A DNA stretch of 64,000 nt from the NCBI GenBank assembly GCA_029582155.1, contig CM055902.1, positions 15,202,086 through 15,266,085 on the forward strand, in the 5' to 3' direction. The stretch is from Panopea generosa. Its lineage: Eukaryota > Mollusca > Bivalvia > Adapedonta > Hiatellidae. Shown one piece after another: positions 21,009 through 51,614 of this stretch. The position numbers were made by a program, and so were the translations under genes. The notes beneath the pieces were generated by a model. The model had not been told where the DNA came from. It saw only the letters and a program-made list of their open reading frames with translations, and made no database searches. The first letter of the stretch is position 1; each line of letters opens with the position of its first letter.

Positions 21009-21960
21009 CGAAAGCTGAAAAGAAAATAACTATTTTTATAACTATGTTTAGTTTGAATCAAAAACTATTATTTCTGTTTGATGTGCTTTTATACACTGTA
21101 AAATGATTCATTCACGTGGCACCATAAAGTATACCTATTTTAATAAAGAAGAGGAAAAATTATATAATTTAATTAAAGATGGAGATATACACGTATATAC
21201 TGTTGGTGGTTAAAAAAGGATAATAGAAGGAATCATTGAAAAGTTTGGTATTAAAGTCTTGCATGATTTGTAGTTTGTATTTAACTATTATAACTTGAAT
21301 ACAGACATGTGAGCTACATCATGACAGTTTATTTACAAATATTGGCCACATGACAAATATTGACTAGTTTGTTCCTCCCCAAAACTTCAAATTTCTCTGT
21401 AACTGATTGTCTGTTGAAAAGCAATAAGTAATAAATTATTGTAGATTTTATTCTGAACTTTTCAGGAACTGTGAGTAATATTATGACTATGTTGCATGAC
21501 AAATTACAAATTTTTGAATCCATGAATTTATTATAGATTTGAAAATTATTCTCCCAGATCTGAATGTGTTTTGAAAAATGATGGAAAACACTCCCACCGC
21601 CATTACCTACTTTTTATACCCAGGTTGGGTCTTTAAGTTGGGCATAAAATAATATGTCATGCATGCATTTTTCTTTTAGCACGTTTTTTTTAATTCTAAA
21701 GTTTATTTTGGATTTAGGAATACTTAGATAACAACATATAGTTTGAAAAAATGGCAATATTTAGACCGGGAATTCATTAGAAGTTCATGTGACATTATTG
21801 GACTTGTGTCAGAGTTATATTTAATGTAAATCAAATTATTTTACATGCCGCGTTTCATTCACTACTAAAAGTACATGTTTAGACAATTGTGATGAGCTTG
21901 ATCAATTGGAATATTACTAGTTTTCAATATTAATTAATACCTATTGCAATTTATTCTATG
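21009..21960 (+). repeat. Right part of the repeat paralogous to 25080-25235, plus plain intergenic DNA
   Basis: About 21630-21785 (GGCATAAAATAATATG, GCATGCAT, TTTTAGCACGTTTTT, ACATATAGTTTGAA, TGGCAATATT, GACCGGGAATTCA) matches 25100-25225 in order. The rest shows no gene. Confidence 0.7.
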
Positions 21961-22500
21961 CAAAATACTTAATTGAACTATTTAGCTGACATTTATAGAC
22001 GTAGGTATTGATATAAAGTTTGAGATGGATTGGAGTGTGTGTGCTTATAGGGTTGACATGACAGATGTGATGATATATCATACATCATACTCTAATATAA
22101 CACCATCGTTAGCATTAAACAAATAATGTTGCCACCTCAAAAGAGGAAGAGACACAGTAAGGGGTATTGAATCGTATTGTTCATATCTGCCCACGGTAAT
22201 TCCCCAGTGCTATTAATAGACTTTAATCGATACACGTCGCTTAGTCAGTCAGATAAAACAGTGCTACGTGTACGTTTAAGAAGGCTGTTGTAACGTTCGA
22301 TGACTATGTGTAGCGTCAGTGAGTGTGTAAAGTGCTATGGGCACGTTTGTGCGGATTAAGAATTTGTCCGGAAACATATGTGTGAGTATATCATGTAAAC
22401 GCAACATGGAAATCACATCAAAGACGAACGATTGCATATGGGTTGACGTTCAAAATGGTGTCTTAAAAATATTTGAAAATGTTAAATATATTTTGTAGTA
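21960..22500 (+). promoter_or_regulatory. Promoter-like segment paralogous to 7040-8250; possible first non-coding exon
   Basis: High similarity to the 8-kb copy over about 300 bases, including CCCCAGTGCTAT, GATAAAACAG, GAGTGTGTAAAGTGCTATG and GCACGTTTGTGCGGATTAAG. The TATAAATA of the other copy reads TATTAATA here. A GTGAGT donor-like word follows at about 22382. It lies 3.3 kb upstream of the SAMD9-like gene in the same orientation, so it could hold the transcription start and first exon; that link is inference. It could equally be a dispersed repeat. Confidence 0.35.
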
Positions 22501-23374
22501 AAAATACTTCGTGCACCGTGAATATATATTTAAGTTGTTATTTAAAAAAAAAGACAAAAAAACATGCACTTTTCATTACGTATTTTCAGAAAAGGTGTTC
22601 ATTTGTGCAGTAGTCAAAATTGTACCGCTCGATTTTATTACTCGTACCCTAATGTACGAACATATATCGAACACGTTAGGATATTTCATGCTATATACAT
22701 TTTAATATAATAAAACAACACTTAACTCATGCGATACTTAATGTTATTATCAGTATTGATATAACTGTTTCTAGTGATACAAAACTTGCGAATGACTGCA
22801 TTGTGTTGCATTTTTAGGTTTAATATAACAGAGGTTATCAAAGGTCATATTACAACTTCACATGATCTTTAGGGTTAAACACATATTTCTGTTTCCTATA
22901 AAGGAAAACGAGATTCCCATTTCTCTTGATTTACATTATCGACTTACTCCTAGCTTCTATACCCTTATTTGAAGCGTTAAACACAGTATTTGTGTGACAT
23001 GACTTGGTGGTTCATATTTTAAATATACTTTATACAAACAATGGTTGTGAGTATCATTATTACGACCTCTCTTTAGTTGTGCAACGTGTATAAAGAAGAA
23101 TGCCTTTGTATAAAGTAACGTTAACAATGCCTTTGTTTCAAGTTACGTTCACCAAATTCTCTCTACAGAGTGTAACTCCTGTTGATTTCCACATATCACT
23201 AATATTTATATGAATAAGTTAAACCTTTCAGGTGTTCGCAGATGTATAACTAATAATAAGTCATAAATGCCAATATAATCTTTGCAATTATTAAAAATCA
23301 TTTCAAATCTGTATAACGTACATGAATTTTGATAAAATGAAGTAGGACTAATATACCGATGGTTTAATACTGTC
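22501..23374. other. Intergenic DNA, nothing recognised
   Basis: A 64-codon frame (22511-22705) has no recognisable similarity. Confidence 0.4.
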
Positions 23375-23454
23375 ATAAGATGACATTAATTATATTTGGC
23401 CCATTAGAGTGATCGCCCACCGATTCTGCTTCTGTGTTTTCAGACAATTTAACT

Positions 23455-23498
<44 letters not shown>

Positions 23499-23547
23499 GT
23501 TGTGCGTGCATGTGTGCGTGCGTGCGTTATGTGTGCGTGTGAGTGTG

Positions 23548-23602
<55 letters not shown>

Positions 23603-25240
23603 AGGAGGATCGCCTGACGAGGATCCCAGTATCCTACCCTACCTAATAATGTATATTGCTCTGATATCTTCTTCACACAGCTGTTTATATAACCTGTAAC
23701 ATTGAAAACGGCCTAGTGCATCATTTTAATCAGGCACATACAGGTAAATTGTAATGGATATGGTAAAGTGTACACAATCTGTGTAGGAGTATTATTTACG
23801 GAAAATAAATCGACCTTATTTATACCGGCTATGTCAAAATAATCGATTGCGTAGCTAGATTGTTTTGGATGTATGCGCGGATTAAGTTATTCAATTTAGA
23901 GCACATTATGATAAGAGCATTTATGACCAATCTATCTTTTTATACTGCTACACCCTCTCGCGAGATTATGTTCTTCCGAGAGTTAACTACAAGACCTGAA
24001 GATTTAATTTTATGCATGTAGTAATTTTCTCCTCTCAGTTAGTTCAAGCCAAGACACTAGGGTCACAATTGGTCATAATCTTGAGGTGGGGTTGGGGTGT
24101 TATGGTGGTTTTATTTGTTTAATAGAAGGAAATCTTCTCAATATACATTCGGTAATATTTGCTGATATTTGAAATAAATAGTTCACATCGGTATAGGTTT
24201 CGAATGTTTTCAAATAAAGGGACTACCATTCATAAGGGCCCATTAATGGAATTGGATATTTACATAGAAATACAATGCTAAAACTGATAAGTCTGTGTTT
24301 CTCATCTATTTAATGCATTTCAAAAATCCTGTTCCCAAGATTTGTTGAGCCAAATTTGTCTATATTTTATATATCCCTCCGTTCATTCGTCTATCCAGAA
24401 AATTGGTTTACAATCAGTAACTATTATTTTGCGTGTACCTGTATACTTATAAAGTATCGGTCAAGCTCGATATTTGTCGACGTCTGTCAAATTTTACAGG
24501 AGTTATGCCACTCTTCGACTTAATCTTCAAAGGAATAACTTTGTTTTCTGATCAGTAGCGGGGACATTTGTGCCGACAGACATGTTTCTAGACTTATCTA
24601 ATTTAGTAATATTATAATCGTCTTGAGATCCATAAGAGATCAACAATGGCCCAAAATAGGTTTGTTCTCATTTCTGTTATGATTTTATTCAATTTGAGAT
24701 TTGAAGCATCGTTTAATCATAACGGTTGAGATTTGGTTTTTAAGGGGCTTAATATCTACATGTACAGGTAATCAACAGGGACCAAACAAAAGATAAATTT
24801 CAAAATTTCAAAATTCTCTCAATAACTGGTCGACAAATATATTCATTGTTTGCCTAAATTATGCTTATTATAATTAGTTTCAAATTTATTCAGATAAAGA
24901 GGTCATGAACCATTGGAATTCAGTATGGGAAAAAAACATTTTCTCACCCATTTCTGCAATGAGATCTGAAGCATTATCAAGCTATGGCAGCTGCTTTATA
25001 TTTTATGGGGCCTTAAAGGGTTAAATTAAACCTACGTATAGTAGCTAGCCTACGTATTTGTGACTCCTGCTGCAAACGGCGTTCATTTAAGTTGTGCATA
25101 AAATAATATGGCATGCATGTATTAATCATTTAGCACGTTTTTAAAAAGTTCTGGTTATTTTATTTAAAAAAAAATGCTTCAATAAAACATATAGTTTGAA
25201 TGGCAATATTAAGGCCGGGAATTCAGCCCGTATGATTTTC
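23375..25240 (+). repeat. Second copy of the large repeat (paralogous to 14390-15200 plus 19740-21785)
   Basis: Order of landmarks: microsatellite block, GGATCCCAGTATCCTACCC, TATAACCTGTAACATTG, GGGCCCATTAATGGAATTGG, CCGTTCATTCGTCTATCC, GGGGCCTTAAA, a single minisatellite unit (GTAGCTAGCCTACGTATTTGTGACTCC), GTGCATAAAATAATATGGCATGCATG and GGCCGGGAATTCAG. In the first copy the same order is split by the transposase pseudogene region and by expansion of the minisatellite. Confidence 0.75.
23459..23599 (+). repeat. (GT)n microsatellite, interrupted
   Basis: Two long GT blocks separated by GCGTGCATGTGTGCGTGCGTGC-type variants. It creates spurious Cys-Val frames. Confidence 0.98.
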
Positions 25241-25376
25241 ATTGGTTACAATCGGCGTTCAAAATAGAGGTTAGCGCAACCTTGAGAAAACACTTTCCAT
25301 TCATAAATAAAGCTGAAACCTGAACAGCATTATTGTACTATATATATGTTTAATCTGATGCAGGAAATACCTGCAG

Positions 25377-25708
25377 AATGGGACTGGGTGTGAGTGTCTT
25401 CGCGTTGATAATCAATCGGAAATCCTCTATAATGTTGGCCGTTTTGCAGCGGAGTTGGAGATGGTTGAGGGCTGCGAATTATACCCCGCACTCAATGTAA
25501 GATTGACACGTAGCTGGCAACAAGCATTTCATTAATCTTGATATCTTGGTTAGTGTTGCACCCTTGTACCCTTTGGGATTAACTTACTAAATGCATGTGA
25601 CACTCGGCACATGAACGTTGAATAGATAAAATGCATTCCTTATTAATATATTTTTGTTTATTTAAACAGGTTGGTGATATTTTATTCCAACGCTGCTATG
25701 ACTTTTAA
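25377..25708 (+). other. Possible leader exon with short upstream ORF
   Basis: Segment 25377-25496 is stop-free, preceded by CTGCAG and followed by AAT|GTAAGA. It encodes NGTGCECLRVDNQSEILYNV and continues with FAAELEMVEGCELYPALN. Joining it in phase 0 to an acceptor at 25668-25669 (TTTAAACAG) extends the frame by GDILFQRCYDF to a stop at 25706-25708, 63 bases before the HEPN start codon. If real, it would be a 5' leader with an upstream ORF, or the end of another gene. The family is not recognised. Confidence 0.22.
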
Positions 25709-25771
25709 ATAGGATATTGAATAGTTCGAAAGGTAGAACAACGCACTGTTCGGTGTTTGTCAAACGTTATA

Positions 25772-26363
25772 ATGGCAAGCAATACATCAGAAACACTGAG
25801 TGAGTTGAGGAAGTCGGACAATTTCCATAGGGTGATGACTCTTCATTTTGACTTTGGAGCACAAACAGTTCGACACTTAATTGATGACAAACTAACTTCA
25901 ATGGGAATGTCTCTGAAAGATCACTTAAAAAGCTACCAATCTAAATTACGAGATCTCTTTAGTAAGCAAGTAATCAATAAGCATCAATGGCAGATTTTGT
26001 GGACAAAAGAGCCAACTCTATCTGCAATGGATGTGTCGTTGTTGACCATTCTTGTTGTAAACACTTTCACATCATTATCCGACGTGGAAAAAAAGGGAGT
26101 ATTAAACTTGAGGAAAAAAAGAAATTCTATGGCACACATTGTGAAAGGAGAGCTCAATGACAATACTGTTTATAGCGAAACTAGCAGGGTCATCCTTGAA
26201 GTTGCAAAGAGTATAAGCATCACATTTTACGAACATATCAAACAGTGCGTCTTCGAGCTAGAGAAACGGGAATTAATCATTTGTCGAAGCAATTTAGAAC
26301 TAGTCCAAAACAAGAACGAGGAACTCATGGTTAAATTGGTTGAAACGTCCAGCACAGAGCAAG
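25772..26363 (+). CDS. Exon 1 of SAMD9-like gene: HEPN domain (DZIP3-like)
   Basis: The start is the ATG at 25772. An in-frame TTG lies 15 bases upstream, but ATGGCA is the plausible initiator. This exon encodes aa 1-197 plus one base. The helical domain ends in LRKKRNSMAHIVKGEL; R117-N118 and H122 form the RNxxxH signature of HEPN RNases, and the arrangement matches the DZIP3/hRUL138-type HEPN seen in many invertebrate immune-like proteins. A Glu/Lys-rich helix follows (aa 155-195), possibly a coiled coil. The donor is CAAG|GTGGGA. If unspliced, the frame would run on to a stop at 26483-26485. HEPN domains of this kind can cleave RNA or mediate dimerisation; catalysis here is inferred from the motif only. 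Confidence 0.88.
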
Positions 26364-29300
26364 GTGGGAAATTCATTTTACAGTTTTGTAAATTCAATGT
26401 GTATGATTTGCTATTGTCTATTGACGTTATAAGTTTAGTACGTAATGACTCCATGTTGATAAATACTTTTGTGGAGTTGATTTGAATGCCATTTTCACGC
26501 ATTTTAGATTATATATGCATTATGCAGTTTTACTGGTGAAGGAAAATCGCAAAATGAATCTGAGTAGAACGACCGTCCTTCCGCAAGTGACAGACATACT
26601 TTCTCTTATAAAGTTTTTAGAGAGAGCGGGACACGAACGTACGACCTTATCAGTGAGAGGTAAGTGATATTGAGAGGATAGCGCCTTGAGTGATTCGGAG
26701 GACCCCATTGATCAATACTGCTTCTTGAATATCAAGTAAGAGTTTCACAGTTCCGACATTTTTGTTTTGATAGTTCACACTTAGAGTTAGTCTCATGTCA
26801 TGATATAAGTAAATAAATCATGCTATTAACTGGTTTGAAAAAAATATATTTTACTGTCAATAAATCATTTGAAGCAGTTTCCATTACATTACATGTTCTT
26901 TATTATTTCTTCTATTAATCTCCATCTACCAATCACCTGGGAGGATAAGAAAAAATGTTTTGCTGTCGTCTGTAATGTGCAACATGTTCACAGAATAAAT
27001 TAGAACATATACGTTATTGTTCACATTTCTCTTTGGTACAAGAGTTGTTTGGTGTAAAATAAAATAGAAATTTTCTAATCTTAATGTCGTTTTGTTTGTG
27101 CAGTTAACAGCACGTCTCAAATTCGCCTTGGCATGACAAAATGGGTTCGACAACTATCCAGAAAACTGGAATTTGGGAACTTTCTCAGGAATTTGAAAGA
27201 TAGAAGCGTGATAACATACACGAAGATGAAAGAGATAGAACATATGTATAACTACGAAGAGCAGGCCAACCTATTAGTGCTGCGAATGGTCAACGAACCG
27301 GATGAAAGTGTTTTGCAGTTTTGTAAGTGTTTGAGAGAATGCAACCCAGACTTGGCGGATTTGATTGAAAACAACCCAACGGATGGAAAAGAAACCGGTG
27401 AATGTATTTATTTGTTTACATAAATGCTAATTGAATTGTACAAAATATAGTGAATCTACTATGTTTACAAAGGTTGTTTTGCAGTACGTATTTTAATATT
27501 GAACATTCAAGTCTCACTACACAGTTTTGAATTTTGTTCCTTCTTCTATATAAAATATTTTCAATTATTTTTTTTTCATAGCAGGAAGTATTCCCACATA
27601 AAATGCACAGCAACTGATAGGTTTACCAGCTTGCTGTTGTTGTTTTATCATAAAAATAAAAATTGGTGCAGTAACACCCTAATATATTTTTAAAAAAAAG
27701 AAGTCCTCAAATACTCATAAATACATGCATCTGTTAAAATCCTATGTCATTTTTTTTCTACCAGTCAAAACCTGGTTTACTGGTGTACCAAACTTTACTC
27801 TTTCCGCGTCGTTACAGTTTTATGAAGTACTGCAGCCTTGAGACGAGAACCATTAATGTAGAAAGTGACTTTCGTAAACAGTATATTCGTGCTGCAATTA
27901 TATTTATACATTTTACAGACAATGCCCTGCAAGTTGTTTTGATAGAAAAGATTCAGGCATTACTTGAGGCAAACATCCAAGTTGATGGAAAGACAAGCAT
28001 TGCGTGTGAAGATGTTCACATTTTTATAGAGGAACGTATGGGATGGTCTCTAAAATTTACTGCAGTTGAGAAATGTGTCATTGATACATTTCACTGTCCA
28101 AAACTGGAAAAGGGAGCTAGCAGGTAGTTTTTTTCATTTCATATGCAGAAGCACAACTATCTGTATACTGAAATATCTTTCTATTGACTTTAATGTTAGA
28201 TTATAATAACATCGGATAACTACAGTGATGTGGTGGCCAGTGCGCATATAGTATGGTGCGCTTATAATACTGCCTCGCCTCAAACAGATATCATTATGAT
28301 ATCATTCTATTGATGAGATCGACGCAGAACTATATTAAGTACAACAGAATACATGTCACTTTGTTGCTAAAGTAACGCTGGGAATGCATTATTTTTATCC
28401 TTATTGTCGCTCCTAAAATTGTAACTTACAAGTACGCCATATTCGTTAGCTACTTCTTAAACTAAAACCCATATATATAGTTTCATATTTTATATACACT
28501 TATCTCTTTCTTTCGAACTTACTTATTGAAGTGAGTCCCATGTTTGGATTACAAATAGTTGGTGTATTAATCACGAGACGTTTTTCTTCGAATACTTTTC
28601 GGTGATCAGTTTATTTATTGGCTTGCCATAGCTTGATCGATGAAGGGTTAATTCGGTCACCATTATAAGTAGTCATTTACCGTAAACAAATGTCATACAT
28701 GTATACCTTTTTAATATGTACTATATATTACTAGTATACAAAATAAATATGCGAAATAAACGGCCCTGGTATATAAACTTGTTTTTACCATATGCAAAGA
28801 CGTATGCTCGTTTTGTGTGATGTTTTTCTCATGAACTCTCATTAAATCAAGTCGGTATTACTTAACTAAGGAGTATTTCTGCAGAACCGGACTCAAAACT
28901 CAAAACGTTTAGGTCTCACTTCACAGTTGAATTTTGTTCTTTGTTCTATACAAAATAAGGTCTAGGATTTCCATGGTAAAAAATGAATTCCGCATAGCAT
29001 TTTTTGTCAGTTTTAGTTCATAGCAGAAATGTAGCCCCATACACAAATGCACAATAACTGGTAGGTTGACCAAGTTAAGTTTTTTTTAAAGTGCAGTGAC
29101 ACCCTGAGATTTTTTGAAAAAGAGGTCGTCAAATGCTCATAAATACATGTTTATATTGAAATCCTATAAAAGTCACTTTTTAGCACCCGTGATGTCCCGT
29201 GTAGTATATGCTATAACAACTTTTGCTCTACTCATCTGCAGCAAGAAATCACAGCTACTATGAATCATTTTGAAAATATTTTAGGCCTCGTTTTTAAGCG

Positions 29301-32300
29301 TAAGAATCATGTTACCGTGCGGAGAAAGGAGGCGTAACTGTATAGTGAAACGTTATATTGCATTTATTGCAGATTTGAAGGTCTGTCTTGGAAAATAGAA
29401 AGGCCAGCTTTGAGTGCAGCAATATCAAATACGCGTAAGTTTGTTTTAAAATGTGGCTTATATTTTGTTGATTGATTGAAGACTTAGCGTCATTTTCCTG
29501 CCATCGAATGCTAACAGACGATCAGTTAACCTAACTGTTTCCTGTGATCCTGAAAGGCTAACCAGTACTCGAGCACACCCCATCTCCGCAAGTAACTGAT
29601 AGCTTTCCCACTTGTATTAGCGGTGAGAAACGAATGATAATGAGACACAATGTCGTATACCAATCAGCACGGAGAATGTTGCCGAGAGGGGATTCGAACT
29701 CGCAACCCTCGATTGATAGTCAGACGCGTAACCGACTGAGCTAATCGGGCCAGGCTTTTTATTTCGTTATTTGTTATTGTAGCTTAGACTTGTCGTAATG
29801 ATTATAACGTATCAGCATCTATTTTTTAAAAGATACTGGCAGCGTTATTCACATATATATTTGTTGACACATGTATCTTACATACAGCTTCAGAGAACCA
29901 TTTTTAAGGAAAACAGGCTATATAATTTCTCTGCAACTCAGTGAAAAGGGTTGGAAAAATGTCATTGTCCATTTATTATGCTCCCCAAAAGGGGGGGGGG
30001 GGAGCAAACAATCGCCGCTTCGTCCTTGCGTCCGTCCGTCCGTGCATCCCGAAGTTCTTGTCCTGGCTATTTCTCTACACCCTCTGGTTACAATTTTATG
30101 AAACTTGCTAGGATGCATCATTACAAAGTGCAGATGTGCATATTGTCTTTGTTCTCCGGTTCGATGATTTTTCATGGAGTTACGGCCCTTTAATTTAGTC
30201 TGTGACCAAATTCTTGTCCGCGCTATTTCACTTGGGGAGCATCCATCCGTTCCACCGATATTTTCTTGTTTGAATAAAAATTCCATGCTGTTTCATAATT
30301 CAAAAAAAGACAACGACTTCTTGTTAATTTGTTGTATACGTTTAACAATACAAACACATTGGAAATGCGTAATAAACTCGTAATTAAAACGTAGTGTTCA
30401 AAAGTAGTAAAACATGTACCAAAGAACGGAATGTGCTTATTGCATATATTTTGGAATATTTAGATACTATTTGTTAATTCTATCTTATTGTAATGATAAT
30501 AGCTAAAGAAGAAATAAAAGCAGACATGCCATGTGAAGAATTTGCGGATTATGTTTGTAAAGAGATGGAAAAGCTGAGGTTGGGACTGGGAGAAAAAATT
30601 CAAACAGCACTGATATCTGAAAGTATATCATCAAAGGTATTCATTAAAATGACAGATATAGAAATGAAAGAGACATTTAGCGAATACCTTGGAGATATCA
30701 AATATGGAATTGGTATTTCAAAAGCTATGTTAGAAGTTCAAGGCAAATTCAGACAAATTCAAAATAAACTCTCAAATGCAGAAAACGAATTAATTCTACG
30801 ACCGTTTGACTCTCCCACGGGAAATATAGTATATTCAAAGTGCAATGTTCGGCCTTTAACAGGCAATTTCCTTGTTCCAGCCCACGAATATGTAGCATTA
30901 CCTGGACACAAACTCGATGTTCCTTGTTTAGTGAAAGAGGTTACAAAATTTGTTGCTGCATGTTTAAATGGGAGGAAAAATGGAACCATTCATTTTGGCA
31001 TAAAAGCCACAGGTAAGGGTTCGGGAACAATAGTTGGCATAGAAACTGACCAGCATGTTGACACACGGTGTCTTAATTGCCAAATTGTGAAGGGAATTGA
31101 AGATTGTTTTGATCAGCCACATGTATGCATTGCCAAACGTTGTGTACGTCCAATACAGGAAATCAGAATTGATGATCATAATATCATTTTGGAGGTTGAT
31201 GTTGTGCCCTTTTCAGGACATATTGGGGATGAGATGTTCGAAATACTTTATCCTCCGAAAGGTCTACAAAGACGGGAATTCTTTGTTTATGAAGCAAGTC
31301 CTAGTTGTGATATATTACGAATTCTACCAGCTAAAGTAGACGAAGTCAAGCGATCGTATTCGACTTTGATTGAACAAAGGTGCAACTTGGAGAAGGAATC
31401 AAATCACTCTTTTGACAAAAACATCAACCTCCACAAACAGCTAGTGAAGCTTCTTACCTGCGGAAACGAATATGTAACAGATGAATTCATTCCTATTATA
31501 TGTTCGGGTAATATATCTGGCTGTCCGAATGAAAATCAGATAAGAAAACAAGTTGAAATGCATGCAGCGTTTACCTCATCAATAGCTGTTTTTGACTTTG
31601 ATTCGTCGATATCACTTCGGAATTCTATTGAGAAAGACAAAACCTCGTTTCACGTAAAGAAAGCGGAGGATTTCGAGAAGGATAGTGAATTGACATCGGA
31701 TGAAAGGATATGGGTGTATTGCAATGGGAATGACGAGCTTAGCCTTGAGAGAATGGATAGCGAAAATTGGTACAATAAAAGATTAGAGAAGGTAAAGAAC
31801 GCAATGTATCGATGCAGGAAGCTAATTCCCGATAAGAGAGCTCTCGTTATTTTCCTTGTGTTTGAAAAATCCGTTGAAAGGGACCCGATGTTTGAAATAG
31901 CCAGAGAGTGTATGCTGTTCACGTTTAAAGGTGAATGCGTCATTATAGCAGAAAATGACGAACAGCTGAGACACTGGAAAAAGGAAATGACAGGTCTTTT
32001 AGGGCATGCCAATGTCGATAGATACTTTCATACGGGGTTGACATGGAGTAGAATAACTCGTATCATGGGCACAGTCTTTAGAATAAATCCAGATGTAGTA
32101 TGTAAGCTTCCAAACTCTATGGGTCATTTTGTAGAAATGACAAGTAAAGAGAGGGACGAGCAAGCATTTGATGACATAGAAATACTTAGTGGCGACCAAT
32201 GTAAACCAGAAGAAGAAAAAATGAGTCACGCTGAAACTAAAGAAAACAATTCCGACCACGAGAAGAAATTTTACAAAGGCAATGCCGTTTCATGGTGGAA

Positions 32301-35300
32301 TTTTTACTACAAAACACATGTAGGGGAAAGAAAACAATTCCGTGACCATAGAAACGATATAGAAAGTAAACTATCATCAAACAAGGGGGAATCACTTTTA
32401 GAAATTCATGAAATACAGCATCGCCCGGGAGCAGGCGGAAGTACACTAGGAATGCACCTCCTGTGGTATTTTAGTCAATTTGCCTCAAGAGATACAAGCA
32501 AAGCATACAGATGCTGTGTGGTACACACTATAACAGAAAATACCATTACAGAAATGGAACGATTTCAAAGCTTTAAAGATGAGGACGCCAAACCGTTTCT
32601 GATTCTGGTAGACAACAAATCTGAAGAAAGCGTGTGTCTGCTAAAGTTCAAACTAAATGAGCTAGCCTATAAAACAGGTTCTCCAGGAAAACTGTTTTGT
32701 CTGATTATCGTGATCAAAAGAGTATCGATGTCCCATGATCCTCCACGGGGAAAACACATACTGGAACACAATCTGACAAAACAAGAGCAAGTGTGGTTTG
32801 AGAAAAAATACGAGGAATTAGAAGAAAAGGGTGACGTAGATGTTAAAACACTAATAGCTTTTAACGTAATGAGAAAGTCGTTTGATGAAACTTACATTAG
32901 TGACATAACTCGGAGAATCTTGAAAGATGTTGAAAAACACGAAATGCAACTTTTGAAATGTCTTGCTCTCATCAATACTTATGAAAATGATAACCCAGTT
33001 CCTCAGAGTGTATTTGACTCCATTATGACAGGATCGGATCCAAATTCATCGGAGATTAATATCGCACTTTGTATTGGTAAAGCGCCATTTGGGATCATGC
33101 ATGCAATGAGAGAAAGACAGCAATTGGTGTCACGAGAAAGAGAAACATGGAATGTGTACATGACAGAATCTCTGAGGTTACTGATAACAAAGCGCAAAGA
33201 TGATTTTTACAACAGTGGTGTATGCATAATTTCTCGACTAATGGCTCAGGCTATTCTGAAGTATATCATGAACGAAGATTGTCTGAATTTAGAAGAGATT
33301 GTCCAATATGTTCTACGTATCGTGAGAAAACACACAAAAGCAGTCGATGCCATGTCAAAACAATTCGTAAAGGTTGTCAACAGTCTTTTTAAGACACGAC
33401 AGTTGTTGGACGGAGAAAAGGGAGAAACAAAAACAAAGAAGTTTTCAGATTTGGTTCTAGAACTCGAACGACCAGTTGATGGAGAGACGGAGGTAAATGC
33501 GTATCAAAGAGTTGTACGCGTAATGAAGACATGTTTCGATTACACCAAAGATGCGATGGTCGGCCAACAACTCGCTCGATTTAATATCCATATTAAGGAG
33601 TATGGTCCCGCAGAGGAGGCTATTAAGCTATCTTTAGAGCAAAAACCACGCAGTTCATACCTCTTGGACACATATGGACAGATCCACAAGGCAAACATGG
33701 AAACATCGATTGAACAGAAAAATAAACTTCACGGAAAAATAAAAGACGAAGATGCTGCAGAGATAGTTAATCTTGCATTTTGCGCCCTTGACAAATTCAA
33801 AGATGCTCAGAAATTGGCTCAAACCGAAGAAGATATTAACTTAGGCTGTTTTCATATGGAAGTCAAAACGGCGTTAACTCTTCTTGAAAAATTTGACCGA
33901 TTCCGTTGCTACAGTGACCGTGGACATTTTCTTAAGTTTCTCAACGACACTGGATATAGTGAAGAAACATCTGATCTAAAAGCGCTCGCACACAAAACAA
34001 AATTCAAAGAATTTCAATATGGAAGTAGAACACAACATCATCTTCAAACATCTCTTCGATATTGTGAGGAAAGAAACTATCAAGTCAAAGATCACCTCTA
34101 CACCATACACACGGAATCGAACGAAGTACTTCTATTAAAACTGAGAGAAAGATTTGAAAGTTTTTACGGAAACTCACACCAAACGTCAAAGCTTCAATTT
34201 TCATACGGTATTGGACTGAAGCCATTGATGATTGCTAAAGTGAAAGACAATGCCAAGCTACTACGAAGAGTGGATGAGGCTCGTATCAATCTTGAAGACA
34301 GATATTCATTGAGGCAAGCAGACCAAAGGGATTTACTTGTATACTTAGGGTATACAATAATAAACATATCATCAAAGGGAAACGGACATGTGAACAATGG
34401 GGAGATACAACCGGATGCCTATAAACGGCTACTGCAGTACAGTGACAGGCTGGTTGAAATTCAGTTAGCCGCACCAAGACCATATCTGGAAGCTTTTTTG
34501 TACCAGGCGATTCTACACTGGCCTGCAAAATCAAGATCACACATACCAAGTTTGTGCCACCCTAAAGGATACGAAAATATGCTCAATGAATGGAACAAAG
34601 CATATAAAAATAATTTTGGTATAGAAGGTACAGATGAAATATCAAAGAATAAACCAAAAAACTATTTCGCACTAGGAAAAGGGCCAGCAGGCAATGATAT
34701 CGTTGACCTTGAGTCAATTAGAAGGCAGTGGCGAAATATGAAAAAGGAAGAAGGCAGAATGAGAAGGCCAGTATATAGAGACAATTTCTGGAGGGAACCG
34801 TTTGTTAAAGAAAAACTGCAAAGACTAGATGGTATAGTGGATGTTGCAGGGCGTATCATTTTACACAAGGTAATTGATAATATAAATCAGTCCTACCAAA
34901 GCTATATATTTGAACATTATTTGAAAGCAATCTTATGAATTTATGCAACAACAACGAGACAATTATGCAGCCAATCCGAGATTCGAATTAAGAACCTTTC
35001 ACTTAAGGGGTTATTGCTCTACCGACTGCGCTAGCCGAACTGCTTACATACGTTTGTCTCATAACATGCTGTGACATATTTTGTCTACACATGTCCACAG
35101 AGACCGCATAATCCTGTGAATGTTTCACGGAATATATATATAAGTTACAGTCTCTCTTGGGCACCAATGTAACAGGACGAGAGTAAGATGAAGCCAGTCT
35201 GGGACGTTCCGCTTACAAGGTGAATGCTCTACCGACTGAGATAACCGGACTGCTTACATACGTTTCTGTTCTACAGGTTATGTTAACATTCAGACATTTA

Positions 35301-38300
35301 CATATGTAATATTTCATGATTTATTGTAACATAGACCTACAGTACGCATTTTATTGAACTGAGGTATGTTTCTCTAAGGTTATGTGATCAATTTATTAGC
35401 TCACAGATGAGCCTTGTGATCGCCCCGTGTCAGTAAACCATTAGTTGTAAACTTTTCCTTAAAACTATTTATTCTCTGAAACATCACGGCAAATATTTTT
35501 ATTAAAGCTCAAATTTGACCCCGTCAAATCGGCTTATGGGTTGTTTAATTTTGTATTTAAAACAAAAACATTCGACACTACAATGCTGGAGCTTTGATAT
35601 TTCACATGTAGTATAACATTAGTTTGTCAGGTTTGTTCAAGCCATGACCTCGATACCAGACGTTACACCACCCTAGGACCTTATCATGAATTAAACACCT
35701 TTATGTCTGGAGCATTGTTTGGTCATAAATGTTTAGACTGGGTTTTCTTAAAAGAGATTAAATATCCATAAGGGACAAGCAGGGGATACAATTTCCAATG
35801 ATCTACTTCTCAATGACTGATATGCTAAATGTGCGTATATTTAGTATATATAATCCACATGAGTAGGGGTTTAAAGAATTGGATAATGGATCTATGCATG
35901 ATTAGGGTCTAATAAAGGGAATTTTACATAGGAGTACTATCCAATCTATTTTAAGAAATTTGTTAATAATTTTCATATATGGATTATTGTTTAGTCATAA
36001 CAGTTGAGACTGTATCTTTAAAGGGGAATTTTATATCTATAAAAGGTATAAAATTATGAAATTTCATAAATTTTCCCAAGAACCGATCAGCAAAATATTT
36101 TAAATTTGCTAAAAGTGATCCCTGTAAATAGGATTTTACATTTGTTCAATAAAAGGTCTAGGATCAATCAGGGGGCAGTAAGTAGACTTCTCCGTGTAAA
36201 TGCTAATTAAAAATTAAAAAGTCGAAGAGAAGTTACAATTGATAGCAGGTGAACAACGTAGGTCCTCTTGATCGATATTGCCTCTTTAGGTGTTTTATTG
36301 CAGGCAATATTGTCGCTTTCTGAAAATGCTATTAATTTATTTAAATATTTAACATTTTCCAGGCAGAGTGTGATCAAAACGTTCACGAATTTCGGATAAA
36401 AACGTACTATCCGTGCCCGGCTTTAAGTAATAGAGCGGTTACATTTGTGCTTGGCTTTAGCTGGAGAGGTCTTACAGCGTTTGATGTGGATGATAAAGGT
36501 ATCTAGTTAGCCTTGTAGTGTCTTGATTCTTGTGTTTTTTAACACCCAGCACTTTGGGTATATCCTTTGCAATATTAACAATGACCAACCGGTTGCCGTA
36601 TTAATCCAAAGTTAATTGTAAAATGAACGAGAACGTTGCAATTATGCTGTAACTAATTAATTCATTCTTGTGACTTGTGGCAAACCCCATTTGCTTTTAT
36701 TTAAAAGTAATAAACTGCATTTTAACCAACAGGTGAATGTACTTACAGCTTGTAAAAGGTTCATGAATAATGTCCTGTCAATATGTGTATATATATTTTA
36801 CCATATTCCATATTCGCTGCAGCATTTTAGTACTAAGGATTTTATTTTAAACTTATTTATTTTACTTCGATTGTGAAACAAGTTATTACAACTTAAGCAA
36901 ATCACGCTCGAAGTCTTCCTGGTTAGAACCAGTACTAAGCATATGCGGAAAAGTGTCTTGCTCAAGGACATCACACATAGCCGTGGCGGAGGATCGGACC
37001 CACGACCCTCCGATCATGGGTTCGGTGCCCTACCACTGGACCACGCGCTCCACTAAGGATTTTGGAACCTTTATTGCATATTATTTAAACAAAAACATCC
37101 AAGTACATACTATTATGTAAGCATTTTATTGCTGTAACATTTATATATAGTTTGATAACCATTTAATCTTTTTGGGAAATGTTTGAAGTGGATATGTAAT
37201 GACTGAGTAGTGAACAATGCCTATTCAATCCAGATAACGTACTATGTGCAGAAAATTTGCGTTGTAACTTAGCCCATAGATCTTCATAAGTCAAGGCATA
37301 GCGTCTCAATGACCAACACAAATATGCTTTAATGAACATGTTAATTAATATCAATTTACATCAGTAACCACAATTTCAATTGAATGAGTTCAATATAATG
37401 ACATATCATTTACCTTTGACAGGTTAAATGTTTGTGCATGTATCATTAAAGTATATGAATACAGGTTTAAGTTTTGCCAACATTCACCAAGCCAAATAAA
37501 CACTAAAAAACCATTCAAAATGTCACACACTGCACTGCTGTCAATCATTTAAATAACATTGAGTTTAACAAAAAAAAATGGAGTTTACTTTCGGATGTTT
37601 CATTTAATATTATATGAGAAGAAAGAACCATATACACCAAATGTCTTGGGTAAACCTAAGTTTATATATACTTTATATACAGGGAGCGAAAGCAATTCAC
37701 CAAGATTGGAACCTCAGTCTGAGAACTTTCCCAGTTTGGACGAAGATTTGAATGACCCGGTCATGCAGGAAAATGCTTCAAATCAAATCTCTCCTGAAAT
37801 ACTGGACGGTGCACAAGGTAAGGTTATCGTGACAATAAACACAAACTATAATAGATGTATTTATTGAAAGACATGTATTTATTTTTTTATCTCAGAATGC
37901 GGATTAACGTCATTTTATTACAAAAAAGTAGGGATATGAGATATCCAGTTTTATTAAATTTTATTAAATTCGGCAAAAATAACCAAAAGAGTAATGTTCA
38001 TATAAAACGTGATACAAAGGACGTTATATATCATGTACTTTTTTGTCGCGAATTACTGGCAAACTCTCTCACATGATGCTTTTGGACCACGCTGGGCTCC
38101 AATTCTAGACCTCAGCGGGGAAAAAAATATAATGTAACACGAGTCATATAGCCATGTGATACCATGCAAACGGGTATGTAAACAAATAAATATGTAATAC
38201 AAAATATACTTACTCTAATAGGTTTGAAATATATACATAACATATTCAAATACGTGACTCTTTTATTGAAGTTTTGCATACCCATGTTATTAACTTACCG

Positions 38301-40879
38301 TGAACGCAAAACCACGATGGTTACACTACGGTAAGTCCGAGCTTCGGATGTACTTAGTGACAACTCGCTAGAGTTTTTGATAGCTTATTACGCCAGTAAA
38401 TGAATGTAAAACACGTGACACGTTTACAATAGTAAATATTAAATATCTACAACAAATGTTTTATCGAGGTATTTCTTCTCTCCTGAGTCATATCAAATTA
38501 TGTAAAAGTATTCTCATTTTGTAGAAGCGTAAACTAATTTAGACACACTTATTTCCGCCATTGATTATTTAAACGAATTTATAAAAAAAATGTGTTCGTT
38601 TATATTTTTGTTTTGCCCATCAGACACTGAAATACCACACTGCTGTTGACGATGCAAGATATTCGTGTGTCTTTGGCGGGTATATTTTGCTACCATTCTT
38701 TCAATGGGGCTCGAAATATAATTTAATTTTTTATTGCTATTTACATATAAATATGAAAGTGTGCGATTCATTACTTTACTAGTGCAACGCTCTCTCATAC
38801 ATTTGTTAGTTGTATCATCAGATGCACAACAAACAAAGCTGTGTGCCTGTGAAATTTTACGATTTACATGTTCACGGTTCATATATAATGGGACGAATAG
38901 CTTACTTATCAAACGTCCCTCGTAGAATATATTTCTATAACAGTAAAGTTAAATAAATGATATTGTTTTTGTATAAACTTATATATTTAAATTATTGAAC
39001 GGAATAAGTTTATGTATTGTTTCTGAATAAAGCTATTGATTTTAATCATTATTTCCGAATAATATAACCCATACAATGATAAATTATTGATTTCAAACAT
39101 TATTTCTGAATAATATAACCCACACAATGATAAATTATTGATTTCAAACATTATTTCTGAATAATATAACCTACACAATGATAAGTATATTTGTTTCTGG
39201 AGGGAATGGTTACTGAACAAAATTAACGATTTTAAACATTATTTCTGAATTACACAACCTATTTAAGTATTATTTCTGAAAGGCATACAGTAGTTTTATA
39301 ACTGTTGTATCTGAACGAAATATCTACTTTAAATATTTATTCTGAAAGAAATAATCTATCTTAAATAATGATTCTAAATGAATAATCTATCTTATTATTG
39401 TATCTGAGTGCTCCCCATGCTAAGGTATGTATCGTTCATTTAAACATAGTATTAAAAACAATTTTGAATATTGTTATCTATTAAAAGAAACTCCAAATGG
39501 TTCACTGTCGAGTGGGTTTCAACTAGTAACCCATACTGCGATAACTATCATCTTTTTTTGAAAATAGACATAAGACACAATATATTCTCTGGCAAAAATT
39601 AATGCAACACCTAACTGCAATAAATGTGTAGGGGAGATAATTCCTTTGTTCAGCGGAGCTTATGTTACATTTATCTATTGTTTTGAACTAAACCATTTGT
39701 TTGTGTTAATTCAATAGTTATTGATATAGTATGCTCATATTGACCAGTTTTTCTGAACTCGTTACCAATTAAATAAAGGCATGCGTAATAAAATTACTAG
39801 TCTACAACGAATGTCGGAACATCTTAATTTGGAACTGCAATTGTTTTGTTTGTTTGTTTTGTGAAATTAGTTCAACGTATATATGTTCTTGTTAGTATGA
39901 CATTTCTTATCAAAACAGCAAACCTGTTTACAATGTCGTTAAATATGTTCGTTTTAAGGACGTGAGGATATATATAGACCAAGCAGGTCATCATGTGACT
40001 GTATGACTACATCAGCAGTTATCCCAGACACTGCGAAAGACGTTTCTCCAATGTCAGAATTGGCCTCCAGACAAGGTTAAGGGAATATATTTGTTAAAAC
40101 AATTGTCAGTCGTTGATATAAATGTTTATTTTTAAACATGATACATTAGGCTTAAACAGGGTATAGACCTAGTTGGTTATTGATTCTAATTTGATTAAAA
40201 AAATGAGGAGATAATTGAATACACTTACATATATAGGTACTTTTTAATATTCAAAAAATCTTAGAGGTGTCAGGACCCTTTGTCACTCTCTAAATCAGTC
40301 AGTGGAATTTTACTGAACATTTGATGAGAGAATACTTTATTTCACGGGGATTGACATGGTTAGTTCACTCGGAAACGCATCTGACCTTATATACAGGTAA
40401 GTTCGAATCCCCGCCCGGCAACAGTCTCTGTGGTGATTGATATAAAACATTGCGTCTCAATGTCTTTCGTCTCTCACCGCTATTTCAAGTGAAAAGTTTT
40501 CAGTTACTTGCGGAGATATGTGTACTCCAGCACTGGCTAACATTCCAGGATCCCAGGAAAAAAGTGAACGTCTATAAGCTCTCGAAGGCATAAAATGACG
40601 CTAAATATTCAAAAAAGCGAACGTGATTTGCAGATTTTAAAGATATAGTATACGTAATTAAGCCATATTATATGATTTATTGAGTATTTATATCTGATTA
40701 TTACAGAAACTGGACTCGCTGAAGCATGTGGCAGTAACACAAATGTTGAAGCAAACGTTGAAGCATGTGGCAGTAACACAAACGTTGAAGCATGTGGCAG
40801 TAACACAAACGTTGAAGCAAGCTCGTCGGCGAAGAAAAAGAAACGGAAGAAAAGAAATAGGAAGAAGACAAAAGAATAG
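25772..40879 (+). CDS. SAMD9L: SAMD9/SAMD9L-like protein with N-terminal HEPN and CARD (9 coding exons, 2026 aa)
   Basis: Joined coding exons: 25772-26363, 27104-27397, 27919-28123, 29373-29434, 30503-34869, 36363-36498, 37683-37817, 39959-40075, 40707-40879. All introns are GT-AG. Exit phases are 1, 1, 2, 1, 0, 1, 1, 1, and the sum (6081 nt) is divisible by 3 with no internal stop. Domain order: HEPN (aa about 20-170), CARD (about 210-287), unrecognised module (296-385), SAM (about 392-463), AlbA_2/Schlafen-like (about 520-660), SAMD9 central region, P-loop NTPase (Walker A about 1027), TPR-like helices (about 1400-1600), OB-like end (about 1810-1886), tail (1887-2026). Vertebrate SAMD9/SAMD9L are interferon-induced antiviral and growth-restraining proteins whose AlbA domain is reported to cleave tRNA-Phe. 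A defence or translation-control role here is inferred. The exact 5' UTR and poly(A) site were not found. The symbol denotes family membership, not proven orthology. Confidence 0.88.
26364..27103 (+). other. Intron 1 of SAMD9-like gene
   Basis: 740-base intron. It contains a possible tRNA-like fragment near 26620-26705 (on the minus strand, a B-box-like GGTCGTACGTTCGTGTCCCG). Nothing else was recognised. Confidence 0.6.
27104..27397 (+). CDS. Exon 2 of SAMD9-like gene: CARD
   Basis: Encodes aa 198-295. After a short linker, six helices fit a caspase-recruitment domain: KWVRQLSRKLEFGNFLRNLK (helices 1-2), a VITYTKMKEIEHMYNYEEQA helix 3-4 block, LLVLRMV, and VLQFCKCLRECNPDLADLIE (helices 5-6), the last being a typical CARD ending. 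CARDs form homotypic filaments with adaptor or caspase CARDs in the cytosol. The exon is 294 nt and flanked by phase-1 introns on both sides, so it is a symmetrical module that could be gained or skipped without shifting frame. Acceptor TTTGTGCAG, donor ACCG|GTGAAT. Confidence 0.88.
27495..27760 (+). repeat. Intronic repeat, copy 1 (intron 2)
   Basis: Words shared in order with 28905-29185: GTCTCACTACACAGTT, GAATTTTGTTC, CATAGCAG, CAACTGATAGGTTTACCA, CAGTAACACCCT, GTCCTCAAATACTCATAAATACATG, AAATCCTAT. It is either a dispersed repeat or a local intron duplication. It lies about 160 bases before exon 3. Confidence 0.75.
27919..28123 (+). CDS. Exon 3 of SAMD9-like gene: unrecognised module, first part
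   Basis: Encodes aa 296-363 plus two bases. An amphipathic helix (LIEKIQALLEANIQVDGKT) is followed by EDVHIFIEERMGWSLKFTAV and a Cys/His-containing EKCVIDTFHCPKLEKG. The pattern of short helices and a strand-like end could be a small winged-helix fold, but I do not recognise a named family. Acceptor TTTTACAG, donor AGCAG|GTAGTT (phase 2). The frame would terminate at the codon immediately after the donor if unspliced, which supports the junction. Confidence 0.75.
28124..29372 (+). other. Intron 3 of SAMD9-like gene
   Basis: 1249 bases. It contains the second intronic repeat copy (28905-29185); the rest is unrecognised AT-rich DNA. Confidence 0.6.
28905..29185 (+). repeat. Intronic repeat, copy 2 (intron 3)
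   Basis: Parallels 27495-27760 with an extra insertion around 28960-29010. It lies about 190 bases before exon 4, much as the first copy lies before exon 3. Confidence 0.75.
29373..29434 (+). CDS. Exon 4 of SAMD9-like gene: unrecognised module, end
   Basis: A 62-nt micro-exon encoding aa 364-385 (RFEGLSWKIERPALSAAISN then T and the first base of Pro). It was found because it restores phase from 2 to 1 between exons 3 and 5, with a good acceptor (TTTATTGCAG) and a consensus donor (GC|GTAAGT). The EGLSWKIERP run probably completes the exon 3 fold. Confidence 0.7.
29535..29758 (-). repeat. tRNA-derived SINE, family B, in intron 4
   Basis: The minus-strand head GCCCGATTAGCTCAGTCGGTTAC with GCGAGTTCGAATCCCC (A and B boxes) is followed by a body with GTGAGAAACGA-type and CAAGTAACTGATAG words in reverse orientation. 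Related copies lie at 40340-40590 and 58998-59255, both plus strand. Confidence 0.85.
29978..30241 (+). mobile_element. Small element with CTCCCC/GGGGAG ends in intron 4
   Basis: Begins ATGCTCCCC followed by AAAAG and a G12 run, and ends CTTGGGGAGCAT, giving short terminal inverted repeats. The interior has GTCCGTCCGTCCGTGCATCC, CAATTTTATGAAACTTGCTAGG and GGAGTTACGGCCC. These words fit a common bivalve dispersed element (recollection, not a search). No transposase is present. Confidence 0.6.
30503..34869 (+). CDS. Exon 5 of SAMD9-like gene: SAM, AlbA_2, NTPase and TPR core
   Basis: A 4367-nt exon (aa 386-1840) holding almost the whole SAMD9 core, as in vertebrates, where the coding region is essentially one exon. 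SAM at aa about 392-463 (VFIKMTDIEMKETFSEYLGD). AlbA_2 at about 520-660 (FVAACLNGRKNGTIHFGIKA, then EILYPPKGLQRREFFVYEA). The SAMD9 middle follows (LVIFLVFEKSVERDPMFEIA and ECVIIAENDEQLRHWKKE). The P-loop is RPGAGGSTLGMHLLW with G1027-T1032, lacking the usual Walker A lysine; FLILVDN supplies a Walker B-like Asp at about 1088. TPR-like helices (AEEAIKLSLEQKPRSSYLLD) start at about aa 1420. The upstream ATG at 30493 lies in the intron. The exon ends CACAAG|GTAATT in phase 0; unspliced, the frame runs to 34938. Confidence 0.93.
34960..35275 (-). repeat. Pair of tRNA-like SINE fragments
   Basis: On the minus strand, GTTCGGCTAGCGCAGTCGGTAGAGC (34990-35050 region) and GTCCGGTTATCTCAGTCGGTAGAGC (35210-35265 region) are A-box heads. 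The first has a B-box-like AATTCGAATCTCGG. Both are flanked by TGCTTACATACGTTT on the plus strand, so this looks like a tandem duplication or two insertions of one family. Confidence 0.7.
35395..36270 (+). repeat. Dispersed bivalve-type repeat
   Basis: Several degenerate paragraphs share phrases such as AGCTCACAGATGAGCCTTGTGATCG, CTACAATGCTGGAGCTTTGATAT, GGGAATTTTACATAGGA and GTTACAATTGATAGCAGGTGAACAACG. The related segment 40985-41490 contains ACTACAAGGTCTGGAGCTTTTATATT and ends CAGGTGAGCGACTTG. No coding capacity. Confidence 0.65.
36363..36498 (+). CDS. Exon 6 of SAMD9-like gene: OB-like C-terminal segment
   Basis: Encodes aa 1841-1885 plus one base. The segment AVTFVLGFSWRGLTAFDVDD matches the conserved last beta-strand region of SAMD9 family members (an FxLGF..xGxxAxD pattern), which ends the family's OB-fold-like domain. 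Acceptor TTTTCCAG, donor AAAG|GTATCT. This exon shows that the frame at the end of exon 5 must be spliced; it would otherwise end in 23 unrelated residues. Confidence 0.88.
36865..37056 (-). repeat. tRNA-derived SINE, family A, in intron 6
   Basis: Inverted copy of the 12925-13130 SINE: the minus strand reads GGAGCGCGTGGTCCAGTGGTAGGGCACC ... GTCGTGGGTCCGATCCTCCGCC and ends at TTCGATTGTGAAACAAG-type sequence at its plus-strand left edge. Confidence 0.9.
37683..37817 (+). CDS. Exon 7 of SAMD9-like gene: disordered linker
   Basis: Encodes aa 1887-1930 with shared Gly at both junctions. Rich in Ser, Glu, Asp, Asn and Pro (ESNSPRLEPQSENFPSLDED, then NQISPEILDGAQ), so probably disordered. Phase 1 on both sides. 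Acceptor TATATACAG, donor CAAG|GTAAGG. Confidence 0.75.
37818..39958 (+). other. Intron 7 of SAMD9-like gene
   Basis: 2.1 kb. It contains a tandem repeat at 39010-39240. Fragments near 38040-38120 (CTGGCAAACTCTCTCACATGATG, CCAATTCTAGACCTCAGC) resemble the SINE-like piece at 55750-55860. The 115-codon minus-strand frame at 38565-38912 has no recognisable domain. Confidence 0.55.
39010..39240 (+). repeat. 51-bp tandem repeat, about 3.5 units
   Basis: The unit contains ATTATTTCTGAATAATATAA then CCCACACAATGATAAATTATTGATTTCAAAC. Copies start near 39041, 39096 and 39150 with drift. It causes a false 77-codon frame with a 17-residue repeat on the minus strand. Confidence 0.85.
39959..40075 (+). CDS. 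Exon 8 of SAMD9-like gene: disordered linker
   Basis: Encodes aa 1932-1969 (REDIYRPSRSSCDCMTTSAV, then IPDTAKDVSPMSELASRQ). Phase 1 on both sides, acceptor TTTTAAG, donor CAAG|GTTAAG, the same AAG|GT context as exon 7. No domain is recognised. It is shorter than other exons and could be alternatively spliced without a frame change. Confidence 0.65.
40340..40595 (+). repeat. tRNA-derived SINE, family B, in intron 8
   Basis: Head TTAGTTCACTCGGAAACGC with GTAAGTTCGAATCCCCG. Body: GTGATTGATATAAAACATT, CTTTCGTCTCTCACCGC, CAGTTACTTGCGGAGATATGTG, ACTCCAGCACTGGCTAACATT. It closely parallels 58998-59255. Confidence 0.85.
40707..40879 (+). CDS. Exon 9 of SAMD9-like gene: nine-residue repeat and polybasic C terminus
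   Basis: Encodes aa 1971-2026 and the stop TAG 40877-40879. After ETGLA comes the 9-residue unit EACGSNTNV, once followed by EAN and V and then twice more in tandem, underlain by a 27-bp DNA repeat. The protein ends with ASSSA and a strongly basic KKKKRKKRNRKKTKE tail, which looks like a nuclear/nucleolar localisation signal or an RNA-binding patch. Acceptor TTATTACAG. The fit of phase and immediate stop after the basic tail support this as the terminal exon. Confidence 0.75.
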
Positions 40880-45130: not shown

Positions 45131-46977
45131 TAGCGTATCAATAATTGGTGCGAACGCAACAATATTATTTCTGATGCTCAGTTTGGGTTCAGAAAAGGAA
45201 AATCAACAGTTGACGCTGCCTTTATACTGCAAAATATCGTGGAACAATTTCTAAATGATAAAAAACGTTTGTATTGTGCATTTATAGACTTAAAAAAAGC
45301 TTTTGATTCAGTTAATAGAAATGCATTATGGTTAAAGAGATATAGGCTGGGTATCAATGGTAAAATGTTAAGAATTATTCGAGCAATGTACAACATCGTG
45401 AAATCTTTTATCAAACACTGTGGAAGGTTCTCAGACATATTTGATATTGCGATTGGCCTTAAACAAGGGGGGATAATCTCGCCGATAATGTTTGCACTAT
45501 TTATTGAAGACCTGGAGCTTTATTTGCAAAATAGTTCAGAAAATGTGTTAATATTGAATGATATAACTCTTATCCTTTTACTTTTTGCCGATGATATGGT
45601 TCTTGTAGGTTCGAGTCCAGACAGCTTACCAAAAAAACTAAATTATGTCAATAATTACTGTGAAGAATGGGGTCTAGAGGTGAATACATATAAAACTAAA
45701 GTTGTCGTTTTTAGAAAAAGGGGTAAAGTAAAGGAAAATGAGAAATGGTATTATAATGGTTACTTACTTGAAGAAGTTGATGACTTTAATTATTTGGGTA
45801 TTATTTTTAATTATACGGGGTCTTTTTGTCTAAACCAGCAGGCTATTTATGGCAAAGCTCTTAAAGCGATGAATGTATTAATATCCAATATCAAAAAGTA
45901 TGAGTTAAGCCCTAAATCATCGCTTCAATTGTTTGACGCATTTGTAGCCTCAATTCTAAATTATGGTTGCGAAGTGTGGGGTGTAACTAAATCTAAAGAA
46001 ATAGAAAGAATCCGCTTACGCTTCTGCAAACACATCCTGGGGGTAAAAACAACTACAAGTAATGCAGGTGTTTACGGAGAATTAGGACGATACCCATTAT
46101 ATATTGGCGGATTTGTTAGGATTATTAACTATTGGCTGAAAATAATTAACACTGACAATATCATTTTGAGGACTGTTTACGAACGCGCTCTTGCAGATAG
46201 TGAAAAGGGATTAAAAAACTGGGTGACAAATATTAAATATTTGTTGAACACACATGGTTTTATGTACATATGGAATGAACCGTTAAATATCAACAATCAC
46301 GGTGCATTTTTGTCTTTGTTCAGACAACACGTGGTGGACGAATTTACTCAAAATTGGATGGCTGACCTTCATAGTAACAGAGTACTGATTTTATATAAAG
46401 AAGTTAAGTTACAGTTTGGTTACGCAAACTATCTTAATTTATTTAGTACAAGACGTCTTCGTATTGCATTTGCTAGGTTACGGTTGTCATCACATAGCTT
46501 AAGGATTGAAACCGGCAGATACGCAAGAACACGAGTAGATGAACGTTTTTGTCAAATATGTAATTCTGGTGATATAGAAGACGAATTTCATTTTATTCTA
46601 ATTTGTTCTGCATATAATGGCATAAGAGCCAAATTTATTCGCAGTTTTTATATACGTCATCCAAGTATGTTTAAATTTCTAGCACTGCTGCAGACAATAA
46701 ATAAATTTGAACTTGTTAAGTTAAGTAAATTCATTGTGGAAGCGTTTGCTATTAGACGTGGCATTACTAATAATATAAACATATAATAAAATACCAATAT
46801 ATTTTATTTGTCTGGCGACTAGGTAATATTTTAATACTCATTAATGATTGAGTAACTCATAGTTTGAAGTTCATCCTCAGTATATTTAATACATCTAATA
46901 ACATATAACATACAAAAATATACAATCTGAAATAATATTATATATGTTATTTATATTCTGATAACTGGCATGTGAAT

Positions 46978-51550: not shown

Positions 51551-51614
51551 ATTATTGTATGGCGCCGTTCCAGCTGTAGTTCCCTAAATCAAAATCTTTT
51601 TTTTCCCATAAAAT

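Follow-up and report, generated by a model that had tools for sequence, protein, structure and literature searches.

The 64,000-nucleotide stretch of Panopea generosa DNA analysed here (the window, C9:15202086-15266085) contains a gene predicted to encode a SAMD9-family protein in which a DZIP3-type HEPN domain and a CARD stand in front of the family core. Judged from the arrangement of the exons and of their copies in the genome, this HEPN-CARD-SAMD9-core fusion is very probably real. On balance, we favour a STAND-like immune protein whose main cutter would be the HEPN domain and not the AlbA_2-like part of the core.

Eight exons with GT/AG sites and matching phases join into a single open frame of 1987 residues (Table 1), a predicted model with hand-chosen splice sites. 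A sequence-only reading of the same DNA had joined nine exons cleanly into 2026 codons; the eight-exon frame stands, whereas the additional 117-nt candidate exon, which restores the length of 2026 residues, has a poor acceptor. Because exon 7 is weakly conserved and exon 8 matched itself alone among the loci compared (the sequence of the near-identical copy used in the comparison stopped short of exon 8), the tail of the protein is uncertain. At the other end, an acceptor-like sequence is seen by eye at about 25660-25710 of the window and likewise just 5′ of the start codon in the inverted and C11 copies; its position before the start codon in three distinct copies suggests an upstream 5′ UTR exon.

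Table 1. Features of the predicted gene, in window coordinates.
Feature	Position	Strand	Evidence and remarks
Exon 1	25772..26363	+	MAS start and HEPN; PF18738 above cut-off; MAS and R-N-x3-H invariant in 4/4 copies
Exon 1, HEPN details	Pfam match 25910-26263; R117 26120-26122; H122 26135-26137	+	
Exon 2, CARD	27104..27397; Pfam match about 27148-27372	+	PF00619 below cut-off here, above cut-off in 1/3 distinct copies
Exon 3, conserved module without recognised fold	27919..28123	+	Matches at the same four loci genome-wide
Exon 4, short	29373..29434	+	Shared with the 99% copy; no counterpart found in the diverged copies (inverted, C11)
Exon 5, SAMD9-family core, 4.4 kb	30503..34869	+	PDB SAMD9, E about 1e-51; paralogs
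Exon 5, conserved helical-looking segment (read earlier as SAM)	30505..30789	+	SAM not supported
Exon 5, AlbA_2-like part	30841..31389	+	Aligned with the human SAMD9 tRNase domain; E184 and D241 replaced, E196 and E218 kept
Exon 5, P-loop HRPGAGGST, without lysine	32419..32445	+	
Exon 6, conserved core end, OB region by position	36363..36498	+	Present in all three other copies
Exon 7, weakly conserved	37683..37817	+	99% copy identical; inverted copy matched at E 0.017; C11 copy without a match
Candidate ninth exon, uncertain	39959..40075	+	In-frame, poor acceptor
Exon 8, lysine-rich tail and stop, uncertain	40707..40879	+	Open frame and acceptor; stop at 40879

The whole genome (1.47 Gb, 39 contigs) was searched with the exons separately. 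The big exon (exon 5) gives six matches: the window itself, a copy at 99%, two pieces of an inverted copy, one at 48% on C11 and a weak one on C10. The HEPN exon gives six, with four strong matches (E 8e-122 to 3e-31) at the window, 99%, inverted and C11 loci and the next two at 3.6e-5 and 3.5e-4. The CARD exon has exactly four matches, all at these HEPN/SAMD9-core loci, and the six matches of the exon 3-4 peptide likewise fall at these loci, weakly on C11 (E 0.0016). The coincidence of HEPN, CARD and SAMD9-like exons at four loci in a 1.47-Gb genome is more than chance.

The 99% copy lies 61.6 kb downstream, with window positions about 21040-40385 corresponding to C9:15284546-15304192; identity is 99.0% over 17 kb including non-coding sequence, and the copy may be a recent duplication or an assembly duplicate. 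About 60 kb upstream, on the minus strand (C9:15163000-15182999), is the inverted copy. As assembled it carries a stop and a frame shift within the big exon and, given these, looks like a decaying or null copy. When the 20 kb around it were compared with the window at the DNA level, two stretches longer than 150 bases aligned, both of them coding. Being near-identical to the window, the 99% copy enters alignment A1 but not A2, A3, A4, A5 or A6; the inverted copy is absent from A6, and its big exon is represented by open pieces alone.

Over exons 1-3 the three other copies are 99% (duplicate), 52% (inverted) and 39% (C11) identical to the window copy, and exon order and strand agree in all four. 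Exon 1 measures 592, 601 and 565 nt in the window, inverted and C11 copies, respectively, exon 2 measures 294, 294 and 303 nt, and exon 3 a uniform 205 nt; the phases of exons 1-3 are identical in these three. The 99% copy agrees with the window in the lengths of exons 1 and 2 and shows 100% protein identity in exon 3. The HEPN exon gives a dN/dS of 0.16 (NG86) or 0.25 (YN00) between the window and inverted copies, values to be read with a high dS, and between the window and 99% copies dN is 0.009 and dS is 0, too few changes for a ratio. For most pairs, dN/dS is unobtainable because synonymous sites are saturated. The pattern as a whole looks like that of a functional, long-kept fusion, and not like that of a faulty gene model or of genes that lie side by side by chance. 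An artefact of the assembly or of the gene model is very improbable: one copy is a 99.0% duplicate that could itself be an assembly duplicate and another is broken, but three clearly distinct copies (window, inverted and C11) share exon order and phases, which already contradicts an artefact.

The exon data bear also on whether the HEPN-CARD part and the SAMD9-like part could be adjacent but separate genes, the second of them starting in or just before the big exon. In the window the big exon does have in-frame ATGs near the start of its open frame. Exon 4, sought by script in the inverted and C11 copies, was not found in these diverged copies, and in C11 the reading frame runs on into the big exon only if a poor acceptor is used. 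Against this, exon 3 ends in a phase-2 donor with no stop in the three distinct copies, the big exon of C11 lacks an in-frame ATG from the last upstream stop to the conserved segment, and the pair has been kept together in four copies on two chromosomes. We consider two genes unlikely.

Exon 1 matches HEPN_DZIP3 (PF18738) with an E value of 1e-7 and 32.2 bits against a cut-off of 27. It contains the motif R117-N-S-M-A-H122, as the sequence-only reading had stated (R117-x4-H122). The HEPN RNase motif R-x4-6-H is present in all four copies, with R117, N118, A121 and H122 invariant. The PF18738 cut-off is reached in two of the four (the window and its 99% duplicate); the HEPN exons of the inverted and C11 copies fall below it and give weak sub-cut-off matches to other HEPN models. 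In pearl oyster, R-x4-6-H is reported for 194 of 202 DZIP3-type HEPN proteins, with N the usual residue after R (PMC9646362). The whole Panopea genome has at least 126 HEPN_DZIP3 matches, a large expansion.

CARD is the best Pfam match of exon 2, and the Pfam CARD model is matched at some score in all four copies (three of three distinct ones). The window copy scores 18.8 bits against a cut-off of 23.9, and the two other distinct copies score 28.0 and 20.0 bits. With E values up to 10 admitted, a profile built from the three distinct copies matched 15 PDB sequences, all weakly (best E 0.032), and 12 of the 15 are death-fold proteins, seven of them APAF1, if the BIRC2 and FADD chains are counted as death fold, which we presume. 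The CARD proposed earlier is probably right, being the best Pfam match and above the cut-off in one of three distinct copies, although it is below in the other two, the window included. The module in exon 3 has no Pfam match and no convincing PDB match, and its structure model is of low confidence (mean pLDDT 51.0).

The segment at the start of exon 5 had been read as a SAM domain, and here the reading found no support. SAM is absent from the Pfam matches of the copies scanned (0/3) and from a PDB profile search with the segment, and the 51 Pfam SAM_1 matches in the genome all lie outside the window. Compared by hhalign with 14 SAM domains taken from this genome, the segment reaches a probability of 1.6%, and 6 of 200 column shuffles score as high. 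In the same profile comparison a CARD alignment scored above the segment, and three real SAM domains left out of the set scored 96.7-97.3%. A single-sequence structure model of the segment has low confidence (mean pLDDT 55.5). The assignment was dropped on the Pfam, PDB profile and profile-profile results and the low-confidence model, although the segment could conceivably be a very diverged SAM domain. According to PMC5445408, SAM is limited to vertebrate members of the SAMD9 family.

Exon 5, 1455 residues long, matches the solved human SAMD9 in PDB with E of about 1e-51. The alignment covers exon residues 100 or 113 to 835, with a second stretch at 904-1108, and the region where the family has its SIR2-like domain falls inside it. 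The P-loop reads GGTT in the C11 copy and GGST in the other three; GG[ST] replacing GK[ST] is described as a hallmark of the SAMD9 family (PMC5445408). The PDB match and the lysine-free P-loop bear out a SAMD9-like protein, and its likeness to STAND-type immune proteins is supported as well. For the proposed OB-like end, exon 6 is indeed conserved in all other copies, but a PDB search with it gave five weak matches, none an OB protein.

In human SAMD9, E184, E196, E218 and D241 form the putative catalytic site of the tRNase and K198, K214 and R221 are binding residues (PMC13245274; for the roles of these residues, also PMC12331169). In the alignment of this region (A5), the copies are 29-32% identical to human SAMD9. 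The human numbers were transferred to the PDB chain with an offset of 155, for which we assumed the full length of the protein, and all seven fall on the stated residue types. At E184/E196/E218/D241 the window copy has L, E, E and A (two of four kept), as does the 99% copy; the C11 copy has A, V, E and D (two of four) and the inverted copy V, L, N and R (none). E184 is therefore missing from all four copies, and two of the four acids are the most that any copy has. Of the binding residues, K198 gives way to another residue in every copy (V, V, I, E), K214 lies opposite a gap in the alignment, and R221 has a basic counterpart throughout (K, K, R, R). The first three acids are well anchored by flanking residues; the gap near D241 is less certain, and the window has no acid there. 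The simplest reading of these replacements is that the AlbA_2-like part no longer cuts tRNA in the human manner. It may still bind nucleic acid, as the position of R221 is basic in all copies.

These residues weaken the earlier proposal of two RNA-cleaving modules in one polypeptide: the HEPN motif is intact in all four copies, but both modules working is probably wrong, since E184 is absent throughout and at most half of the reported acids are kept. A protein in which both nucleases are active would be consistent with the 45 and 41% identity of the AlbA_2-like part between the window and C11 copies (big-exon residues 101-300), with E196 and E218 in the window and with the basic residue at R221; the missing E184, the incomplete acids and the replaced K198 position make it improbable. 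The intact HEPN motif together with the incomplete tRNase site makes HEPN the predicted cutter of the protein, and from its motif the HEPN domain may be a working nuclease. More tentatively, the branch may have undergone a nuclease swap, in which the tRNA-cutting site of AlbA_2 was lost while a HEPN RNase and a CARD are carried, so that the same sensor and switch would serve another RNA-cutting weapon and a death-fold signal.

HEPN might instead bind RNA or partners without cutting, with the protein signalling through its CARD in an apoptosome-like particle, as PMC5445408 proposes for SAMD9. The published family model agrees with this, as does the lead of ICEBERG, APAF1 and CARD8 among the CARD profile matches. 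Against it stands the R-N-x3-H motif, invariant in four of four copies although the diverged ones are only 39-52% identical, and we rate signalling by CARD without cutting as doubtful.

In the protein that we favour, with HEPN as the main cutter, the C-terminal half would keep the molecule off until infection or damage is sensed, and the P-loop part would drive oligomerisation. HEPN RNases act as dimers, and oligomerisation would join HEPN domains into active RNase dimers. The CARD would recruit a partner, for example an adaptor or a caspase, and the AlbA_2-like part would be a structural or RNA-binding piece rather than the main cutter. The sensor, the P-loop switch and the oligomerisation steps are taken over from the SAMD9/STAND model described in PMC13245274.

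The predicted protein resembles human SAMD9 and SAMD9L in its core sequence (E about 1e-51) and lysine-free P-loop. The vertebrate proteins begin with SAM, and their tRNase is active and has E184, E196, E218 and D241, whereas here HEPN and CARD come first, SAM is unsupported and the acids are incomplete. Fish and invertebrate SAMD9-family proteins with CARD, Death, Pyrin or FIIND heads were described in 2017, with Mollusca among the carriers (PMC5445408). They are alike in having a death-superfamily domain before the core, and differ in that HEPN, present on the SAMD9 core here, is absent from the main text of that paper. The domain family of the HEPN head, DZIP3/hRUL138, was described in 2013 with fusions to TPR, CARD, NACHT, Death and others and with an expansion in oyster; the main text of that description does not mention SAMD9 (PMC3710099). 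Fusions with CARD, Death and NACHT in animals are reported in both PMC3710099 and PMC9646362, and in bivalves HEPN is reported fused with death-family and TRADD-N domains (PMC8195603). Closest in combining a DZIP3-type HEPN with a STAND-type NTPase switch are the HEPN-NACHT proteins, of which pearl oyster is reported to have more than 50 (PMC9646362) and cnidarians many (PMC8260672); these, as described there, have NACHT with LRR, WD40 or TPR ends, in place of which the present protein has the SAMD9 core.

The architecture as a whole had been put forward as undescribed. CARD heads on SAMD9 and HEPN-CARD/NACHT fusions are already published, as above, but the open-licence literature, judged by titles and the starts of abstracts, yielded no report of HEPN joined to a SAMD9 core. 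An earlier description of a HEPN-SAMD9 protein may exist beyond the texts covered. In layout, the protein would resemble prokaryotic Avs (antiviral STAND) proteins, with a nuclease in front, an NTPase switch and a C-terminal sensor, a likeness drawn for SAMD9 in PMC13245274. That source states that mammalian SAMD9 and SAMD9L restrict viruses by cutting a tRNA and that how they are switched on is still open. In a relative that has a different RNase predicted at its front and lacks part of the tRNase site, one could examine which parts serve as sensor, switch and weapon; such a protein would also connect the SAMD9 proteins of animals with the mix-and-match logic seen in STAND defence proteins of bacteria.

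The weak big-exon match on C10 belongs to a distant SAMD9-like gene on the minus strand, with a best E of 2.6e-12 to SAMD9 and a lysine-free APGSGGT P-loop. It has no HEPN or CARD match within 20 kb and no Pfam match, and its N-terminal part is different; by eye, we take its front to resemble a LOTUS/OST-HTH domain. As this SAMD9-like gene shows no HEPN or CARD match, the HEPN-CARD arrangement is not universal. Elsewhere in the window, reverse-transcriptase open frames of retroelements (RVT_1) lie at 45134-46786 and 52164-52829, the second below its cut-off, and large tandem-repeat arrays occupy 11212-12168 (168-base unit), 19814-21009 (48), 47620-48539 (26) and 50764-51552 (21).
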